Shown piece after piece: positions 811-15,701 of a stretch of 24,391 nucleotides of DNA. Within the stretch, counting starts at the first letter, position 1; the number at the start of each line of letters is the position of its first letter. The stretch is from a virus: positions 1 through 24,391 of IMG/VR virus record IMGVR_UViG_3300025874_000092. One strand, written 5' to 3'. The notes under the pieces are model-generated. The model was given only the letters and a program-made list of their open reading frames with translations. It was not told the origin of the DNA and did no database searches. The position numbers were made by a program, and so were the translations under genes.

Positions 811-2340
811 ATGATTAAGGTACAATCTGAGACATCAAAGACAATATACCCTAGCCTAACTTCAGTTAGTGATGATGCTAATAGCAATTACTACCTAATG
901 GAGGTTGAAAACGAGCAAACAAAAAGAAAAGTTGCTAAGGTGATCACTAAAGGAGCTGTTACAAATAGATCAGTAGCTTGTAGTTTAGACGAAGTCACTT
1001 ACACAAATTTCTCTTCTTCTGGTGCTGTGTATATGGATCACCTTCCTTACTTACTAACAACTGGTGATAATTGGAGTATGTGTTTATGGTTTAAACATAA
1101 GTACAACACTGGAAACAGTGACATAAAAACGTTGATATACTTTAGACAATTGACAACTCCGTCTGAGTTTATTTGTACCATTAACGCTGATGGTTATATA
1201 GAAGTAAATCAATACTTTAATAAGGTTCACGTATTTGATAGTGTTAAAGTTGATGATGGTAATTGGCACAGATTGGTGTTAACTCAAAAGAATAATGGTA
1301 GCACTGCTAGTAAGATTAAATGCTATATAGATGGTAAACACATTGGTAATACATCTATCGATTTTACTTTGTATTGGTCTAACTTTGATAGGTACTTTTT
1401 AGGAACCAATTTAGCTGTATCAGGAAGAAGTTTATTTGGTGAACTTAAAGACTTTCAACTATGGGACTACACTTTAAATGGTGATGATATTAAATTTGAT
1501 TATGACTTTCCTGACTTTTTAGCTTCAGATAGACAAGAAAACGCAGCACCTGTTAATAGGAATATGAAAACTAGATATGAATTATCTAGCGCTACATTCG
1601 GTAACTTCCATAACTCTTACAACGATAATTTAATAGACTATCCTAACGATTTTTTTAGTTGGGAAAACATAAGCAACCTTGATATAAGTAACAACGTAGC
1701 TTTATCAAACAATGGATTTAAAATAGCTGACAGAATAACTTACGATGGTGTTTCTAATTTTAATCTTATAACCCAAACAATAACGAACGTTCCAGGTACT
1801 GGGGAATGGAGGTTTGGAATGTGGGTAAAAGGAGAAGGTAACACAATAGGAAGTAGAGGAAGATTAAGGTTTTACTCTGGTACTTCTGTGCAATACCCTC
1901 AAGAGACTATATTTATATACACTGATCAATGGCAATTTGTAGATACTTATACTGATATAGGTGTTACTGGCTCTTTGGTTTTAGGTTTTGAGCCATTAAT
2001 ATTTTGGGACAATACAAGTAGTGCACGTGACCCACAAAAAGGAGATGCTATTTACGCTTATGGGGCTAGGTTTAAAGGAACAACTTATGACCTAACAGCT
2101 ACACTTGTAGCTAGTGCAACTTTCCGAACAGGCTCAACTCCTATGTTTGCTTTTGATGATAACGCTTTTTATAAGTACAAAATATACGAGCAAACAAGCA
2201 AAAATAACACAGATATTTACGATGACTCTATTCTTGGTTTAAGAGAAGAAGGTAAATTATTTGTACAGGGAATAGGTCAACCTGAATACGTAAAACAAAA
2301 AGACGCAGATTCAACAAACGAAGTATACTTAAAAATATGA
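811..2340 (+). CDS. LamG / concanavalin A-like lectin domain virion adhesin
   Basis: 509 residues. Residues about 70-225 form a LamG (laminin G, jelly-roll) domain: strand WSMCLWFKHK near 88-97, GNWHRLVLTQ near 150-159, CYIDGKHIG near 171-179 and FGELKDFQLWDYTLN near 209-223. Residues about 280-430 look like a second beta-sandwich, carbohydrate-binding-module-like (GEWRFGMWVKGEG, then QWQFVDTYTDIG). The first 50 and last 60 residues (REEGKLFVQG..NEVYLKI) look like a separate virion-anchoring part. The protein most likely decorates the virion and binds polysaccharide on the host surface. It overlaps the portal start by four bases (ATGA), so the two are translationally coupled. It could be a head fibre or neck appendage rather than a tail fibre, and the position next to the portal favours that. 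Confidence 0.65.
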   Translation: MIKVQSETSKTIYPSLTSVSDDANSNYYLMEVENEQTKRKVAKVITKGAVTNRSVACSLDEVTYTNFSSSGAVYMDHLPYLLTTGDNWSMCLWFKHKYNTGNSDIKTLIYFRQLTTPSEFICTINADGYIEVNQYFNKVHVFDSVKVDDGNWHRLVLTQKNNGSTASKIKCYIDGKHIGNTSIDFTLYWSNFDRYFLGTNLAVSGRSLFGELKDFQLWDYTLNGDDIKFDYDFPDFLASDRQENAAPVNRNMKTRYELSSATFGNFHNSYNDNLIDYPNDFFSWENISNLDISNNVALSNNGFKIADRITYDGVSNFNLITQTITNVPGTGEWRFGMWVKGEGNTIGSRGRLRFYSGTSVQYPQETIFIYTDQWQFVDTYTDIGVTGSLVLGFEPLIFWDNTSSARDPQKGDAIYAYGARFKGTTYDLTATLVASATFRTGSTPMFAFDDNAFYKYKIYEQTSKNNTDIYDDSILGLREEGKLFVQGIGQPEYVKQKDADSTNEVYLKI

Positions 2341-4496
2341 GCTTAAGAATAATAAATTTAGCGGCTGAGAAATCACCAAAAGCAAAAGAGTCTAACTCTA
2401 AGGAGTGGGTATCTTACGGTGATGACAATAACTACTTTGAGTATTTGATTGACAGATACAATGGTAGTGCTGTGAATAACGCGATTATATCGTCTGTTAG
2501 TGATCAAATATATGGCGAAGGTTTATCGTGTACTGACGAAAACAAAAAGCCTTTAGATCACGCTAAGATGAAGACTATATTTAAACCAAACGATTTAAAG
2601 CGTGTATCTCATGATCTTAAGTTATTAGGTCAAGGTGCGTTTAACATTGTTTGGAATAAAGGTAGAACTCAAATACTTAAGGCAAAGCATATACCTATGC
2701 AAAACTTAAGGCCTGAGAAATCTATAGAAGGTGAAATCCAGGCATACTACTACTCCGATGATTGGAGTCAATATAGAAAAGAAAGATATGCACCTAAACG
2801 CATCGAAACGTTTACTGGTGAAAAAGGAGATACATCGCAAGTATTGGTTATAAAACCTTATGCTTCAGGTTACTTTTACTTTTCACCTGTTGATTACGCT
2901 GGATGTTTGCAATGGGCAGAGATAGACGAAGAAATTGGTACATACCATTTATCTAATATTCAAAATGGCTTCGCTCCTACGATGATGATCAACTTCAACA
3001 ATGGTCAACCAACTGAAGATGAGCAAAATCATATCGAGAATAAAGTGATGCAAAAGCTTCAAGGTACTAAAGGTAAAAAGTGGCTTATATCATTTAACGA
3101 TGATACTACAAACGCAACTACTATTGATAGTTTACCAATATCAGAAGCTAGTGAACAATACAAGTTTTTAAGCGAAGAGGCTACACGTAAGATCTTAATA
3201 GGTCACAAAGTAACTAGTCCTATTTTGTTTGGTATAAAAGACAGCACAGGTTTAGGAAACAACGCTGACGAAATAAAGACTGCTTCTCAATTATGGGACA
3301 ACACAGTTATACGGCCATATCAAAATATGATACTTGATGCTATAAACGAAGTGCTGCTTGTTAACGGTATTATTTTAAACACATACTTTAAGACTTTACA
3401 ACCAATAGAATTTATAGAAACCGAAGGTCTTGATGCTGATGAGAAAGAGATAGAGACTGGGATTGATCAATACAGTGAGTTTAGTGAATTCAAAGACTTA
3501 AAAGACATAGATACTAAGCCAACTAGTGGAATGATCTCTGAGGCTAAGAGAGGACTGGAACTAAGAAGAGAGTTTGGTAGAGGAGGTACTGCTGTTGGAG
3601 TTGCTAGAGCTAGAGATATATCTAACGGTAAAAATTTAAGCTTAAGTACTATCAAAAGAATGTACTCATTTTTTAGCAGACATGAGAAATCTACTAAAGG
3701 AGGACAAGGCTACAAAGTAGGAGACGATGGCTACCCAAGTGCTGGTAAAATAGCTTGGCTACTTTGGGGTGGAGACGCTGGGTTTACTTGGTCAAAAAGA
3801 AAGGTAGAAGAAATAAAGAATGTAGAAGAAGACTTTTATAAATGTAAACCTGGTTGTAAAAAGAAAAAAGGTAAATGTGAATGTTCTTCTAACTTTAAAG
3901 ACGAAAGACCTTTTTTATCAGATGATCAAGGCGATGATCTGTTAGACTACTTAGAATTAGTTGGAGAAGAAAACGATAATGATGAATGGGAATTAATAAG
4001 TGAAGAAGAGGTTGATACTACTAAGGATGGTTTTCACCAATTCGCTAATCCTACAAAATCAGATGCTAATCCAGATGAAAAGTCTAGATGGGGAGACACT
4101 GGTTTATATAAGGTAAGATATGTTTATTCTAAGACTTCTAGAAAAGAGTCTAAATCATCCTCAAGACGTTTCTGTAGTAGAATGATAGAATTATCATCAA
4201 GCGGAATAGAGTACCGGTATGAGGATATTATCAAAATGGGTAAAGACGGCATAAACTCAGAATTTGCTCCAAAAGGAAAAAATACCTATAATTTGTTCAA
4301 ATACAAAGGAGGCGTTAATTGCCACCATGGTTGGCTTAGAAGAATATACTTTAGAAAAAAGAATAATAAAGGAAGGTTCTTACCTAACGAAGGCTTAGAA
4401 AACGACAAACGTGTAGGTAACAATCCTTATGTGAAGCAAAAAGGTGAAGAGGCTAAAGCAATGATTGATACACCTAATAAAGGACGACTAAATTAA
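2337..4496 (+). CDS. Composite portal protein with C-terminal gp7-like minor head domain
   Basis: 719 residues, longer than a typical portal of 400-550. Residues 1 to about 390 are portal-like: an N-terminal part with NNAIISSVSDQIYGEGL, the YFYFSPVDYAGCLQWAEIDEEIG region, and the helical TSPILFGIKDSTGLGNNADEI region. Residues about 394-494 hold a compact domain of unknown role (GRGGTAVGVARARDISNGK, then GYPSAGKIAWLLWGGD) that I know from phage portals and prohead-protease-type proteins. A four-cysteine knot-like cluster follows (C503, C507, C513, C515). The last about 115 residues carry FCSRMIE (C613), a Y-x-x-E-D-I motif and GGVNCHHGW (C662, H663, H664), the pattern of SPP1 gp7-type minor head proteins. 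It forms the DNA-entry dodecamer and probably part of the head interior. A DUF6712-type gene follows six bases later. Confidence 0.75.
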   Translation: MSLRIINLAAEKSPKAKESNSKEWVSYGDDNNYFEYLIDRYNGSAVNNAIISSVSDQIYGEGLSCTDENKKPLDHAKMKTIFKPNDLKRVSHDLKLLGQGAFNIVWNKGRTQILKAKHIPMQNLRPEKSIEGEIQAYYYSDDWSQYRKERYAPKRIETFTGEKGDTSQVLVIKPYASGYFYFSPVDYAGCLQWAEIDEEIGTYHLSNIQNGFAPTMMINFNNGQPTEDEQNHIENKVMQKLQGTKGKKWLISFNDDTTNATTIDSLPISEASEQYKFLSEEATRKILIGHKVTSPILFGIKDSTGLGNNADEIKTASQLWDNTVIRPYQNMILDAINEVLLVNGIILNTYFKTLQPIEFIETEGLDADEKEIETGIDQYSEFSEFKDLKDIDTKPTSGMISEAKRGLELRREFGRGGTAVGVARARDISNGKNLSLSTIKRMYSFFSRHEKSTKGGQGYKVGDDGYPSAGKIAWLLWGGDAGFTWSKRKVEEIKNVEEDFYKCKPGCKKKKGKCECSSNFKDERPFLSDDQGDDLLDYLELVGEENDNDEWELISEEEVDTTKDGFHQFANPTKSDANPDEKSRWGDTGLYKVRYVYSKTSRKESKSSSRRFCSRMIELSSSGIEYRYEDIIKMGKDGINSEFAPKGKNTYNLFKYKGGVNCHHGWLRRIYFRKKNNKGRFLPNEGLENDKRVGNNPYVKQKGEEAKAMIDTPNKGRLN

Positions 4497-9149: not shown

Positions 9150-9637
9150 TGGGAGGAGAAATACTAAGCGACGATGTAGCTAAAGCAGTTTTACAAGCAG
9201 CAGCTGATCAATGTAAAGCTACACCAGAGTTGGTGAAGTCAAAAGACAGAAGAAGATTTATTGTGGAAGCAAGACAACTTGTGACAGCAATACTAAGAGA
9301 AGGAGGATGGGGTTTTCAAGAGATAGCTAACTTTCTTACAGAAGAAACTATTGGAAACCATACTAATCCTCATCACTGGTATAAAATGCATAACAAAGAT
9401 TATGAGATGTATGACTACTATAAGATTAGCTATGACATTTTAAAGAGCATTCATGGCGAAAACATAGATGAATTTAAAGCAAATAAAGCTAAACTAATAG
9501 ACATAGAGAGATATATTGATCTAAAACAAAAGTTCGACCAATTGAAGCTTAAGCATGATGCGCTTTCAATGGAGAATAAATTAATTAAGCAGAGTGCAAA
9601 TAAATTAAAATCACAAATAAACAAGTTATGGAGTTAA
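9146..9637 (+). CDS. DnaA domain IV-like DNA-binding protein with coiled coil
   Basis: 163 residues. Residues about 18-82 match the C-terminal DNA-binding domain of DnaA: ATPELVKSKDRRRFIVEARQ (25-44) corresponds to the 'K-S-k-x-R-x-x-x-x-x-A-R-q' helix, and IGNHTNPHHW (69-78) to the D/N-H-T signature that contacts the DnaA box. There is no AAA+ ATPase domain. Residues about 108-160 are a charged coiled coil (KQKFDQLKLKHDALSMENKL). It probably binds DnaA-box-like sites, either to recruit host replication to the phage or to regulate it. ATG 9146 overlaps the previous stop. ATG 9149 is also possible. Confidence 0.72.
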   Translation: MMGGEILSDDVAKAVLQAAADQCKATPELVKSKDRRRFIVEARQLVTAILREGGWGFQEIANFLTEETIGNHTNPHHWYKMHNKDYEMYDYYKISYDILKSIHGENIDEFKANKAKLIDIERYIDLKQKFDQLKLKHDALSMENKLIKQSANKLKSQINKLWS

Positions 9638-9960
9638 CAGGAAAAGTAGTAAAGATCTTAGATCTCGAAACAATTAGCGAAAAGTTTAAGAAGCAAGTAG
9701 TTGTTATTGAACAAACCGATGCAATGTACGACAAAGAAGTACCAGTAGAATTTGTCAACAAAAGTGTTGATGAGATCTCAAGCCAATTAGAAGTAGGCCA
9801 AAACGTTAAACTTGGTATCAACCTTTGTGGTAGAGAATGGCAGGGTAGATACTTTGTAAACATCAGAGGTTGGAGAATGTTCAACGATGAAATTAGTGAA
9901 GATAGTGTTGCTGATCCAGTAGGAGCAAGCAATGCAGGTGGAAGTGATCTACCGTTTTAG
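9628..9960 (+). CDS. DUF3127 family SSB-like protein
   Basis: 110 residues. MELTGKVVKILDLETISEKF, a 'F-K-K-Q-x-V-V-I-E' strand and GREWQGRYFVNIRGWRM (about 73-89) match DUF3127, an OB-fold family common in Bacteroidota. The last residues are an acidic, glycine-rich tail ending GGSDLPF, the same design as the C-terminal tip of single-stranded-DNA-binding proteins that recruits replication partners. This strongly suggests an SSB role. It overlaps the DnaA-like gene by 10 bases and is followed by a strong terminator. Confidence 0.8.
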   Translation: MELTGKVVKILDLETISEKFKKQVVVIEQTDAMYDKEVPVEFVNKSVDEISSQLEVGQNVKLGINLCGREWQGRYFVNIRGWRMFNDEISEDSVADPVGASNAGGSDLPF

Positions 9961-10270: not shown

Positions 10271-10558
10271 ATGAACATTCTAGAAGAAGCAAACAAAATT
10301 ATCAATGAAAGATCTGAAGAGAAGGAGCGAATGTACGGTCCTTTCTCTGAAGGTATGGAGAGAGCAGCATCAATAGTATCTGCATCTACAGGTAAAGATA
10401 TAACCGCATCTGATATGTATATATGCCTTGTAGCTTTAAAGCTCTCTAGGCACTCTTATAATTACAAAGAAGATAACTTATTAGATGCAGTAGCATATAT
10501 TGGAGCGTTAAACAACTATGAACTAAAACAAAAAAACAAAGATGAAAGCACTGATTAA
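10271..10558 (+). CDS. DUF6378-like small phage protein
   Basis: 95 residues. ILEEANKIINERSEEKERMY, G-P-F near 24-26, then the helix pair YICLVALKLSRHSYNYKEDN (56-75) and LLDAVAYIGALNNYE (76-90) match the helical phage family I know as DUF6378 ('yGp..., k-l-a-R, h-k-x-D-N-x-x-D-x-x-G-Y'). The function is unknown. The helix pattern with D-N-x-x-D resembles MazG-like all-alpha pyrophosphatases, and it heads a nucleotide-metabolism operon. It overlaps the next gene by 17 bases. Confidence 0.65.
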   Translation: MNILEEANKIINERSEEKERMYGPFSEGMERAASIVSASTGKDITASDMYICLVALKLSRHSYNYKEDNLLDAVAYIGALNNYELKQKNKDESTD

Positions 10559-11519
10559 CATTTACTCAAACATTCAATGTACTCAAAAGAACCACTCTGG
10601 TTTAGAGGCTCATTACCTATCTACTCATCACGATTGCGATTTGATTGGCAAGTCTGGTAGAACAAATAAAGACTTTGATAAATACGTAGATATTTTTAGC
10701 ATTGAAGATCTTACTAAATACGATGGTATCATAATTCAACTTAGTCAACCTAACTTTTTTGGAGGAGTAATTGGAGATGATACTATTGAAAAGGTAAAGA
10801 AAGTTGCAGCTTATTTAGGTAGCACTAATATATTATGTACCGATCCTAAAATCAAACCAACTAATCCTGCTAAGATGATCAATGATAGAGCTGAAGGTAC
10901 TTTTAGCGATGATCAAGTAGCTGCATGGGATCTAATCCTACAGAAATCTACTTACGTATTTCCTGGAAAAGACTTAGCTAAGTTTTGGAGCGATGATAAA
11001 TACAAAGACGTAGAGGTATCTTATTTTAATTTCTTTCCTAAGATCTTTGGTCACTTGCTAAACCCTGAAATTAGTGATAGACCTAAGTCACACGATGTAG
11101 TTTACTACGGTGATCGAAGAGGTTCTTATAGAGAAAAGCAAGTAGAGAAATACATGCCACAAAAAGATACTTCTTTACTAATCGGATTTAAGACTACTAA
11201 AGTTGATGTACCATTTACTAAAAAGCTTAAGCATGACGAGTTAATGGATAAATTAGATCAATGTAAAGTTAGCTTAGTATTATGTGATGCTGAACATAGA
11301 GATAACGTGGTAACATTTAGACTATATGAGACTTTAGGTTCAAATTGTTTAGCTGCAATTCCAATTGAGTATGATCCCAATAAAGAAATTATTCAAGACC
11401 CTGAGTTACGTGAACTTTTATACGTAAGATCTAAAGACGATGTTAGAAACTTAGTAGGTAAATATAGTACTGAACTAATCAAGAAGCAACATGAAGAATT
11501 TAGAAGGCTTACAAGTTAA
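10542..11519 (+). CDS. Putative glycosyltransferase (GT-B-like), possibly DNA-base modifying
   Basis: 325 residues. The N-terminal half looks like a Rossmann domain (KYDGIIIQLSQPNF near 58-75, then a helix and STNILCTD). The C-terminal half has DVVYYGDRRGSYREKQ (near 185-200), SLVLCDAEHRDNVV and FRLYETLGSNCLAAIPIEYD (about 260-279). The R-x-x-E-T-L-G-x-x-C/A pattern (E263) resembles the nucleotide-sugar-binding segment of GT-B glycosyltransferases, including T4 alpha-glucosyltransferase. It is two genes upstream of a hydroxymethylase-like gene, so the acceptor could be 5-hydroxymethylated base in phage DNA. The fold match is by eye, and another sugar or nucleotide enzyme is possible. Confidence 0.45.
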   Translation: MKALINIYSNIQCTQKNHSGLEAHYLSTHHDCDLIGKSGRTNKDFDKYVDIFSIEDLTKYDGIIIQLSQPNFFGGVIGDDTIEKVKKVAAYLGSTNILCTDPKIKPTNPAKMINDRAEGTFSDDQVAAWDLILQKSTYVFPGKDLAKFWSDDKYKDVEVSYFNFFPKIFGHLLNPEISDRPKSHDVVYYGDRRGSYREKQVEKYMPQKDTSLLIGFKTTKVDVPFTKKLKHDELMDKLDQCKVSLVLCDAEHRDNVVTFRLYETLGSNCLAAIPIEYDPNKEIIQDPELRELLYVRSKDDVRNLVGKYSTELIKKQHEEFRRLTS

Positions 11520-11667
11520 ATTCACTTGGCTTGGAGAAGTTCTTACTGGAATTTGTCACGGTAAAGCTAAACTTAATGATGGCACTTATGTGTATATGTG
11601 CTCTAAAAAAGGAAGTCAAACAAAATACCCTATAAAACCAAGATTATGTGGAATTTTAAAACAGTAA
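11491..11667 (+). CDS. Small beta-rich protein bridging glycosyltransferase-like and hydroxymethylase-like genes
   Basis: 58 residues (MKNLEGLQVKFTWLGEVLTG...). The alternating strand pattern (QVKFTWLGEVLTGICHGKAK then GTYVYMCSKKG) resembles a small SH3/KOW-like barrel. It overlaps the upstream gene by 29 bases and the downstream gene by 22 bases and fills an otherwise empty 126-base gap, which supports translation. No known function. Confidence 0.5.
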   Translation: MKNLEGLQVKFTWLGEVLTGICHGKAKLNDGTYVYMCSKKGSQTKYPIKPRLCGILKQ

Positions 11668-12560: not shown

Positions 12561-13019
12561 ATGGCTAACAAGGACAACAAATGCGCAGATCTTAATACAT
12601 TAGATCAAAAATCAAAAGATTGGGACTTTATTTTCAATTTACAAAAGAGCACACAAGAGAACACTTACGGATTTAAGTTTGATAGTTTATCATTAGAAGA
12701 ACTATCTAAATTCTGGTGTGTTAATAAGCATGCCCTTGACGATGAGATATGTGAGATGTTCGATGCATTAGGTGGTATCGATGATGGAATTGGTAATGCA
12801 GCATGGAAATACTGGAAAGCTGACCATGAAAAAGCTAAAACGATGAAGGTAGAAGATCTTACAGATAATGATCTTAAAGAATTAAAGTTTGAAATTGTTG
12901 ATGCGTTTCATTTTTTGATTAATTTTGCTGTAAGTATCAACATGTCTGGTAGTGATCTTTTCAATATGTTCAAAGCAAAAAACTTGGAGAACATTGCTAG
13001 ACAAAAAAATAACTACTAA
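12561..13019 (+). CDS. Dimeric dUTPase / dCTPase-like all-alpha NTP pyrophosphatase
   Basis: 152 residues. The metal-binding motifs of the dUTPase_2 / MazG-like superfamily are present: D61-E62-x-x-E65 (DEICEMFDALGG), then the aromatic AWKYWK (81-86), then E111-x-x-D114 (ELKFEIVDAFHFLINFAVSI), then the C-terminal KNLENIARQ (140-148). The family hydrolyses dUTP, dUDP or dCTP to the monophosphate and pyrophosphate in the cytoplasm. T4 gp56 of this superfamily removes dCTP and supplies dCMP to the hydroxymethylase, and the placement here 250 bases after such an enzyme suggests the same job. Substrate cannot be told from sequence alone. Confidence 0.8.
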   Translation: MANKDNKCADLNTLDQKSKDWDFIFNLQKSTQENTYGFKFDSLSLEELSKFWCVNKHALDDEICEMFDALGGIDDGIGNAAWKYWKADHEKAKTMKVEDLTDNDLKELKFEIVDAFHFLINFAVSINMSGSDLFNMFKAKNLENIARQKNNY

Positions 13020-13708
13020 TGAGAGATCGTAAATTCCAAGGGATATGGATACCTAGAGATGTGTACCTTAACACAGATCTAACATGGATAGAAAAGATAC
13101 TACTTATAGAAATTGACTCTCTTGACAAAGGTAGTAAAGGATGCTTTGCATCTAATGATTACTTTGCAGAGTTCTTAGGAGTGTCTAAAACACATATATC
13201 AAAATCAATCAAACATTTGATAGAGTTGAACTTCTTAGTACTTAAGTCATTCAATGGTAGGATCAGAATACTAAAAAGTGCGTTGAACTCTACTTCAAAG
13301 CAGAGTTGTACTGAGGTTCAAAGCAGAGTTGAAGCTAAGGTCAAAGCAGACTTGAACTCTACTTCAAATCCTAATATAATAGTAAAGAATAATAAAACAA
13401 ATACTAAAGAAATAGGTAAACCTATTTTATCCAAAAAGACAGGTAAGCCTAATAGTTTTGAAGAGGTTCAAGAATACTTCATACTAAAAAGTAGTGATAA
13501 ATTTGTAGCATTAGACTTTTACGAATACTATGAAAACATAGGTTGGAAAGTAGGTAAGAACCCAATGAAGAAATGGAAGTTAGCAGCTAATCGTTGGATG
13601 CGTAACAATAAAAACTTTAAGAAACCAAATCCAGATCAAGGGTTATCAGATGTTTACTTCCCAAATCTGCTTGACTTTAATGACGAACAAACCAAAAAAC
13701 TATTATGA
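13019..13708 (+). CDS. Winged-helix replication initiator-like protein (O-like)
   Basis: 229 residues. Residues about 5-75 form a helix-turn-helix typical of phage replication proteins: FQGIWIPRDVYLNTDLTWIE, then LLIEIDSLDKGSKGCFASND and YFAEFLGVSKTHISKSIKHL. A polar, repetitive linker (about 84-140) follows. Its DNA contains four 23-bp tandem units (see the repeat entry). The C-terminal part (VALDFYEYYENIGWKVGKNP, then KWKLAANRWMRNN) is a helical domain seen in many phage initiators. It most likely binds the origin inside its own gene, as lambda O does. It shares bases with both neighbours and precedes a companion replication gene. Confidence 0.72.
   Translation: MRDRKFQGIWIPRDVYLNTDLTWIEKILLIEIDSLDKGSKGCFASNDYFAEFLGVSKTHISKSIKHLIELNFLVLKSFNGRIRILKSALNSTSKQSCTEVQSRVEAKVKADLNSTSNPNIIVKNNKTNTKEIGKPILSKKTGKPNSFEEVQEYFILKSSDKFVALDFYEYYENIGWKVGKNPMKKWKLAANRWMRNNKNFKKPNPDQGLSDVYFPNLLDFNDEQTKKLL
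13272..13368 (+). repeat. 23-bp tandem iterons, putative replication origin
   Basis: TCAAAGCAGA starts at 13295, 13318 and 13341, exactly 23 bases apart. A fainter unit begins at 13272 (TAAAAAGTGCGTTGAACTCT) and a truncated TCAAAT at 13364, both in phase. The block TTGAACTCTACTTCAAA occurs twice. Because 23 is not a multiple of three, the repeat does not code for a repeated peptide, so it appears to be selected as DNA. A very AT-rich stretch (13364-13412) and an inverted repeat AATAGGT-AA-ACCTATT (13411-13426) follow. Confidence 0.75.
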
Positions 13709-14367
13709 TGGTAGGAAAAGAAGAAACACCAGAGCTACTTGAATTTTGCTTTAATGTAATCAATAAGACTCTATTTGAAATGAGTCAGAAACGTGCTGAA
13801 AGTGATCGAAAGGTATTAGCTAATATGTTACTAGCAGATGTAATAAAAAGATACTACACGCTTACGAAAGATGAGATCATAAAAGGATTTAGTCAAGGAG
13901 TAAGAGATGGAGAAGAAATGAGTATAAACCCTAGAACATGGAACAGATGGCTAAGAAAAGCTAAAATGAATTCTAATGCATATAGGATAAAATTATCACA
14001 AGATAATAAAGTACTACTATTGGAAACAACTAAAACACCTAGTGAACTCTCAAACATACAGAGAGAGTTTGTAGAACTTTGTATTGTAGAACCATTTGAA
14101 CAGTTTGTCGAAGATAACTCTCTAAAGCTTACAGGTATTACAATTGTTTATAAATATCTAGAAAGCAAGGATTTGATTAAATTAGATAACGATAAGAAAC
14201 TTAAAATGCTTAAAGAAGCAGAGAGAACTATTAAAGCTCGTAGAAAGTTTCATGGTAACGAATATGAAACCTACGATGCAAAGACTATCTGTAGAGAAAA
14301 AGTACTAAAAGACTACTTTAGAAAATGGAAAAAAGAACAAGTAAATTTAAGAAAGATACTCCTTTAG
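13705..14367 (+). CDS. Replication-associated hypothetical protein, possible helicase-loader counterpart
   Basis: 220 residues, mostly helical and charged (MMVGKEETPELLEFCFNVIN...). It includes EEMSINPRTWNRWLRKAKMN (near 71-90) and a basic C-terminus (KDYFRKWKKEQVNLRKILL). No Walker motifs are visible, so it is not an ATPase of the DnaC type. It starts in an ATGA overlap with the initiator-like gene and overlaps the resolvase by 43 bases. Position equals that of lambda P, but this is inference. Confidence 0.5.
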   Translation: MMVGKEETPELLEFCFNVINKTLFEMSQKRAESDRKVLANMLLADVIKRYYTLTKDEIIKGFSQGVRDGEEMSINPRTWNRWLRKAKMNSNAYRIKLSQDNKVLLLETTKTPSELSNIQREFVELCIVEPFEQFVEDNSLKLTGITIVYKYLESKDLIKLDNDKKLKMLKEAERTIKARRKFHGNEYETYDAKTICREKVLKDYFRKWKKEQVNLRKILL

Positions 14368-15040: not shown

Positions 15041-15205
15041 ATGAAAGGAGTAATAAACAGAACAATATTGGAAGGAATACAGAAAGAACAGTCTATGACT
15101 AAAATCAAAAAAGAACTTAAAGAAGTTCATAAGATTACTATTTCTCCAAGTGCATTCAAAATGAGATACAATGCAATTAAACAAAGATTTGACGCATTAC
15201 TATGA
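15041..15205 (+). CDS. Small HTH-like protein ahead of the sigma factor
   Basis: 54 residues from ATG 15041 (MKGVINRTILEGIQKEQSMT...), highly basic. KIKKELKEVHKITISPSAFK (about 21-40) looks like a helix-turn-helix with S-x-S-A-F-K-M-R in the second helix. It overlaps the sigma-like gene by 35 bases. It may regulate or assist it. Not a recognised family. Confidence 0.5.
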   Translation: MKGVINRTILEGIQKEQSMTKIKKELKEVHKITISPSAFKMRYNAIKQRFDALL

Positions 15206-15701
15206 AAAGATTTATGAGATTGCTTTAAAGATCACTAAGAATAACGTCAACGACGCTAAGGATCTAACGCAAGATGTTTGTCTTATAGTATTAGAGTATG
15301 ATCAACAGAAAATGTCTAAGATCATAGATAATGGTCACTTGATATTTTGGGTAGCAAGAGTAATGCTGAATCAGTATTCTCGATCTAACTCTACCTTCAA
15401 AACTAAGTATCACACTTACTTAAGATCAGAGAATGTAGAAATAAATAATTTCGAATACTTTGATGATATAAGTTGGCACCAAGAAAGAGAAAACAAATTA
15501 GAGTTTATTAATTCAAAACTGAAAGATCTTCATGAGTACGACAAGATCTTATTTCAGATTTATTTCTCTTCAGGTAAAAGCATAAGAAAACTATCTAAAG
15601 AATCTGGGATCTCAGTTACTTCGATATACACCACATTAAAGAACGTTAAAAACTATTTGAAAGATGAAGTTGAGAACGAGTACGAGGAACTTACAAGATA
15701 G
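15171..15701 (+). CDS. Phage-encoded sigma-70-like (ECF-type) transcription factor
   Basis: 176 residues. Region 2-like helix block at about 8-80: YEKIYEIALKITKNNVNDAK, then DLTQDVCLIVLEY (the 'D-A-x-D-x-x-Q-x-v' pattern of ECF sigma factors) and FWVARVMLNQY. Region 4-like HTH at about 118-165: LHEYDKILFQIYFSSGKSIR then KLSKESGISVTSIYTTLKNV. It would direct host RNA polymerase to phage promoters, most likely late ones, since it lies next to the packaging genes. The start at 15171 is the only ATG that preserves region 2. It overlaps both neighbouring genes. Confidence 0.78.
   Translation: MQLNKDLTHYYEKIYEIALKITKNNVNDAKDLTQDVCLIVLEYDQQKMSKIIDNGHLIFWVARVMLNQYSRSNSTFKTKYHTYLRSENVEINNFEYFDDISWHQERENKLEFINSKLKDLHEYDKILFQIYFSSGKSIRKLSKESGISVTSIYTTLKNVKNYLKDEVENEYEELTR

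Follow-up and report, generated by a model that had tools for sequence, protein, structure and literature searches.

The linker-coding part of a phage replication initiator gene carries an array of four 23-bp-spaced iterons that is very probably a lambda-like theta origin, lying inside, and read by the product of, its own HTH_36 winged-helix initiator gene. The window, i.e. the whole stretch of DNA analysed, corresponds to positions 1-24,391 (24,391 nt) of the IMG/VR virus record IMGVR_UViG_3300025874_000092, and all coordinates refer to it (Table 1). The origin model starts from what can be read in the sequence, namely the repeat and its constraint at the DNA level, the dyadic unit, a layout kept in relatives, and recognition helices that vary together with the iteron arms. 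From these we infer binding of the initiator, DNA unwinding, loading of the helicase and activity as an origin.

Table 1. Features of the candidate origin region and their coordinates in the window
Feature	Position	Strand	Remarks
Initiator gene	13019-13708	+	229 aa; HTH_36 winged-helix N-terminal domain (about residues 1-88), probably disordered linker (91-147), conserved C-terminal block
Recognition-helix codons	13187-13225	+	Residues 57-69, helix in AlphaFold model; T58, H59, K62 and S63 co-vary with iteron arms
Degenerate leading spacer copy TAAAAAGTGC	13272-13281	+	In phase, 5/10 match
Iteron dyad 1 TTGAACTCTACTTCAA	13283-13298		Arms 5/5
Iteron dyad 2 TTGTACTGAGGTTCAA	13306-13321		Arms 4/5
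Iteron dyad 3 TTGAAGCTAAGGTCAA	13329-13344		Arms 4/5
Iteron dyad 4 TTGAACTCTACTTCAA	13352-13367		Identical to dyad 1
Three 7-bp spacers AGCAGAG/AGCAGAG/AGCAGAC	13299-13305, 13322-13328, 13345-13351	+
A-rich tract, putative DNA-unwinding element	13368-13410	+	43 nt, 84% AT; 26 A, 10 T
Inverted repeat AATAGGT-AA-ACCTATT	13411-13426		Exact; arms extend to 8 bp at 13410-13427
Adjacent conserved gene, probable replication partner	13705-14367	+	C-terminal half matches C-terminus of relatives' long one-piece initiators

The initiator gene and its iterons

The product of the gene at 13019, regarded as an initiator in an earlier note on this DNA, matches the HTH_36 family (PF13730) with 38.4 bits (E=1.1e-9), above the curated Pfam cut-off of 25, as well as PHROGs 2880, 678 and 270, all of them described as replication initiation (4.8e-14 and 7.1e-18 for PHROGs 270 and 2880, respectively), so that this assignment stands. 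Its AlphaFold model shows a confident winged helix-turn-helix, followed by a stretch with pLDDT <50 over residues 91-147, which is probably a disordered linker. A PDB homology search with the initiator yielded no significant sequence relative, and the best solved-structure matches of the model in Foldseek (4pql, 4pt7 and 5kbj, described as initiator or Rep-DNA structures) are weak (E = 1.7e-3, TM about 0.3), the confidence of the whole model being low. Neither did the Pfam scan of the initiator give any match to RepA_N (PF06970), with which the similarity is one of fold only. The array and the AT-rich tract that follows it correspond to codons 89-131, nearly all inside the low-confidence region, and the iteron DNA could be accommodated within the gene, as the linker encoded by this part is disordered and would tolerate many sequences.

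The exact recurrence of TCAAAGCAGA every 23 bp, at 13295, 13318 and 13341, was confirmed, with no further exact copy in the window, and the best tandem array reported by TRF for the whole window covers 13282-13368 (period 23, 3.8 copies, score 95; runner-up 40). This 10-mer, however, which the earlier note had taken as the repeat unit, is the junction of two units. The unit itself is a 16-bp imperfect dyad of the TTGAA-N6-TTCAA type plus a 7-bp spacer, and four such dyads lie exactly 23 bp apart, without any other close dyad copy elsewhere in the window. As for the weaker units proposed at both ends of the array, the one at 13364 (TCAAATCCTA) has 7/10 matches and that at 13272 (TAAAAAGTGC) only 5/10; in the wider family, the place matching 13272-13281 is often occupied by AAAAGCAGA.

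A repeated linker peptide, or a chance or simple-sequence repeat, could in principle give rise to such an array, and peptide repeats are in fact seen in certain relatives whose period is 21 or 24 bp (e.g. L045). In the window, however, a period of 23 sets the three copies of TCAAAGCAGA in three codon phases (0, 2 and 1), where they encode SKQ, QSR and KAD. The self-match score of the initiator gene is 25.6, as compared to at most 13.6 among 100 shuffles of codon order and at most 16.6 among 1000 synonymous recodings that kept the protein, whereas the other window genes tested do not exceed 10.6. Since the observed repeat was reached in 0/1000 synonymous recodings, it belongs to the DNA rather than to the encoded peptide, as had been claimed at the outset, which refutes the peptide explanation for the window and leaves this whole class of explanations with a negligible probability.

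Conservation in close relatives and the elements downstream

Two close relatives, L005 and L006, have initiators 91% and 75% identical to the window protein, respectively, and each of them keeps four dyads at exactly 23 bp. The loss of this phase in close relatives, which had been named beforehand as an argument against the origin, is thus not seen in either of them. Further very close relatives were sought, and none was found. When compared with L005, there are 0/43 third-position differences within 13283-13411, which comprises the array and the AT-rich tract, against 46/186 in the rest of the gene (p = 3e-5). Two of the three longest identical runs in this comparison of the initiator gene (13341-13415 and 13277-13339) fall in the region of the array and the tract, and the third one (13166-13234) covers the recognition helix.

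The AT-rich stretch reported after the array is present as a tract of 43 nt with 84% AT, and 13368-13411 is identical to L005 at every nucleotide. Its AT richness is unexceptional when compared with synonymous recodings of the protein it encodes (64/200). The inverted repeat at 13411-13426 is exact, in agreement with the 7-bp arms originally noticed, and appears as AATAGAT-AA-ATCTATT in L005 and as AACAGGT-AA-ACCTGTT in L006, i.e. two compensatory double changes. Although this motif was expected to be incidental, it was retained because of these compensatory changes, which, together with the third-position conservation against L005, suggest selection on the DNA itself in the array and in the inverted repeat alike. 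The copy of AGGTAARCCT reported at 13441 does occur, as AGGTAAGCCT, but not as an origin element: it encodes GKP, is changed in both L005 and L006, and was rejected as incidental. On the other hand, GC skew is positive throughout the 24-kb record, with no inflection, and it is uninformative about the origin because its sign never changes.

The wider family and the recognition helix

A set of 118 non-redundant initiators was assembled from searches and named phages, 115 of them testable for repeats. A short-period repeat of the linker, mostly of 22-24 bp, was found in 92 of the 115 at a codon-shuffle p<=0.01, and dyad arrays spaced 20-25 bp in the same linker were significant in 95 (0/50 codon shuffles). 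A first dyad detector based on arm matches alone separated poorly from the shuffles (mean chain of 3.2 vs 2.1), and became discriminating once the similarity between units was added. The wider family keeps a period of 21-24 bp with different arm sequences, which vary by lineage yet stay complementary, as in TTGGTGAAAACACCAA (L030), TTGGCGAAAACGCCAA (L057), TTAGCAAAAATGCTAA (L244), TCCATTAAATAATGGA (L072) or TTTACACAAATGTAAA in the lactococcal phage BK5-T.

Downstream elements recur as well. In 82% of the genes, against 29% expected, the AT-richest 45 nt fall in the interval that surrounds and immediately follows the array, and among relatives with a GC content >40% the AT tract goes beyond the synonymous expectation in 9/15 (p<=0.05, corrected for picking the minimum). 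Inverted repeats after the AT-richest stretch were detected in 20/104 relatives at p<=0.05, when about 5 would be expected. The inverted repeat 3′ of the AT tract is often centred on CTAAAG (ATATCTAAAGATAT, GATATACCTAAAGGTATATC, TTCTAAAGAA), as observed in L048, L239, L154, L148, L030 and L138, which suggests a common ligand or priming signal. The spacers are conserved by clade: a periodic GCAG or GCTG occurs in 30/71 A1-type relatives and in 0/47 of the A2-type, and a periodic ACCCC/GGGGT in 15/47 of the latter. A non-dyad spacer kept in all frames makes a second protein contact possible.

Differences between iteron arms track those between recognition helices once the rest of the domain is removed (r = 0.285, 0/2000 permutations, n = 84), in a test whose unit-picking rule sometimes takes AT-rich non-iteron stretches and thereby adds noise. 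In a stricter set (n = 68), a block-wise partial Mantel analysis gives a partial r of 0.349 for the helix, with no other 10-residue block of the domain >0.076, whereas the rest of the domain against the arms, with the helix removed, gives r = -0.03; shared ancestry is only partly controlled by the Mantel permutations used for the relation between helix and arms. A column scan places T58, H59, K62 and S63 among the highest-scoring columns. Of the signs that each initiator would bind the dyads within its own gene, this correlation is the strongest. It is also the part of the analysis that may be new, and open-access literature searches found no survey of coding-sequence iterons in the HTH_36 phage initiator family. 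Somewhat better than even chances can be given to a broader proposal, namely that, across the large HTH_36 family of phage initiators, the origin and the protein reading it make up a single self-contained module that evolves freely, in which a short helix stretch at about 58-63 acts as a specificity code for the arms. Under this code SKW, for example, would go with TTGAA, SRW with TTGAC or TTAAC, SEII with TTCG, and TISTS with TTTAA.

The same relation bears on two other explanations, both very improbable and to a similar extent. One of them is a structured RNA element, with hairpins in a row along the initiator mRNA, that could serve, for example, in translational control. The dyads of some relatives could indeed form hairpins (z = -2.5 to -4.9 in L030, L057 and L244), but the array of the window folds no better than its shuffles (z = -0.73, 53/200), for which RNA structure was rejected in this case, and arms that follow a DNA-recognition helix speak against it too. 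The other is a site for partition (centromere-like), incompatibility or packaging that lies in the initiator gene by coincidence. Iteron-like arrays also act as partition sites in plasmids; no ParA/ParB-like gene, however, was recognised among the window proteins scanned, and the arms follow the helix encoded by the very gene that surrounds them.

Known origins, the initiation model and its implications

The arrangement of an origin inside the initiator gene is already known from lambda O, from the Rep proteins of plasmids pSK41 and pPR9, and from phage BK5-T. In lambda, as in the window, iterons in the initiator gene are followed by an A-rich tract on the same strand and by an inverted repeat (PMC6022878), GTCAGAGAATTC/GAATCCTCTGAC in lambda, whose counterpart is the one at 13411-13426. 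Even the lengths are equal, with an array of 85 bp and an AT-rich tract of 43 nt in both. The four annotated iterons of lambda ori in gene O, seen as imperfect dyads, are spaced 20/24/23, whereas the spacing in the window is strictly 23 bp, with AT-rich arms and a conserved AGCAGA spacer, unlike lambda. The parallel with lambda drawn in the earlier note is therefore upheld as one of layout. With the Phage_rep_O profile (PF04492), the window initiator scores 15.2 bits, below the cut-off of 28.7, as compared to 123 bits for lambda O itself, and hhalign gives a probability of 0.4% for the two proteins, i.e. no detectable homology, which makes lambda O a functional parallel and not a detectable sequence relative. 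Since its initiator falls outside the O sequence family, the window origin would work like lambda ori without bearing the Phage_rep_O label.

BK5-T is already of the same kind as the window, and its initiator ORF49 matches PHROG 270 at 1.3e-62. This HTH_36 initiator gene contains four in-gene dyads of the TTTACACAAATGTAAA type (spacing of 23/22/23), followed by an AT-rich tract and an inverted repeat, as in the window, and differs in its arm sequence, its C-terminal region and its Gram-positive host. The record of BK5-T annotates a repeat_region in the replication gene, which coincides with these four dyads as detected under the same criteria. In pSK41, a staphylococcal RepA_N plasmid, the rep gene has four Rep boxes in its central part, which encode a dispensable linker, and the protein has an N-terminal winged helix (PMC5703833). 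In the staphylococcal plasmid pPR9, an HTH_36 domain and its origin segment stand in place of the pSK41 equivalents, and this rep region replicates autonomously and supports a mini-replicon (PMC5703833). The N-terminal domain of the pPR9 Rep belongs to Pfam 13730 (PMC5703833), as does that of the window initiator.

These comparisons also weigh on the possibility that the dyads are operators only, with the protein acting as a transcriptional regulator (a roadblock or autoregulator) in its own gene and replication starting elsewhere. A fold that resembles MarR-like regulators and dyadic sites, which suit repressors, would fit with such a role. The matching PHROG families, however, are those of replication initiation, the array is inside the gene and not at a promoter, and the window has no other close copy of the dyad. 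Moreover, the AT tract and the inverted repeat follow in a fixed order, as in lambda, and the N-terminal domain of a functional pPR9 replicon is of the same Pfam family (PMC5703833), all of which makes operators alone improbable.

Initiation at a lambda-like origin of this kind would start with the binding of the winged-helix domain of the initiator to each of the four 16-bp dyads, most likely as a dimer. The resulting nucleoprotein complex would strain or open the A-rich tract just downstream, and the C-terminal block of the initiator, together with the product of the gene at 13705, would then recruit the host replisome. Past the tract, the inverted repeat is probably another place for protein binding or priming. 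The 13705 product has no Pfam hit and no significant PHROG hit, but the C-terminus of long one-piece initiators aligns with its C-terminal half (hhalign probability of 94%, E = 1e-7; BLASTP E = 6e-5), which suggests a joint role with the initiator, perhaps like that of lambda P with O. A homologue with 61% identity is found in the record of L006. The long initiators sharing this C-terminus, in L010, L008, L014 and similar relatives, point to gene fission or fusion.

No helicase gene was recognised among the window proteins scanned with Pfam and PHROG. Other genes of this small tailed phage include those for a portal protein (2337-4496) with a long C-terminal extension that matches PHROG 2859 and a cysteine-rich stretch (KCKPGCKKKKGKCECSS), a single-stranded DNA-binding protein of the DUF3127 type (9628-9960; Pfam 5.9e-21, PHROG 4932), and a sigma-factor-like protein (15171-15701; PHROG 1740, 1.2e-7) just upstream of the terminase genes. 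A match to a phage beta-glucosyltransferase family (10542-11519; PHROG 7922, 1.9e-15) has as its neighbour a gene resembling thymidylate synthase, at 11646, and the pair hints at modified bases in the DNA.

The array thus offers a concrete and cheaply testable origin for an uncultured phage, and a layout known mainly from lambda recurs in a large family whose initiators show no detectable similarity to O in sequence. This family provides dozens of natural pairs of initiator and origin, whose DNA-reading residues and sites co-vary, enough for working out a recognition code experimentally. If the proposal of a freely evolving module is true, initiator and origin would re-specify together within a single exchangeable cassette of 500 bp, and this joint re-specification would let related phages and plasmids avoid cross-talk.
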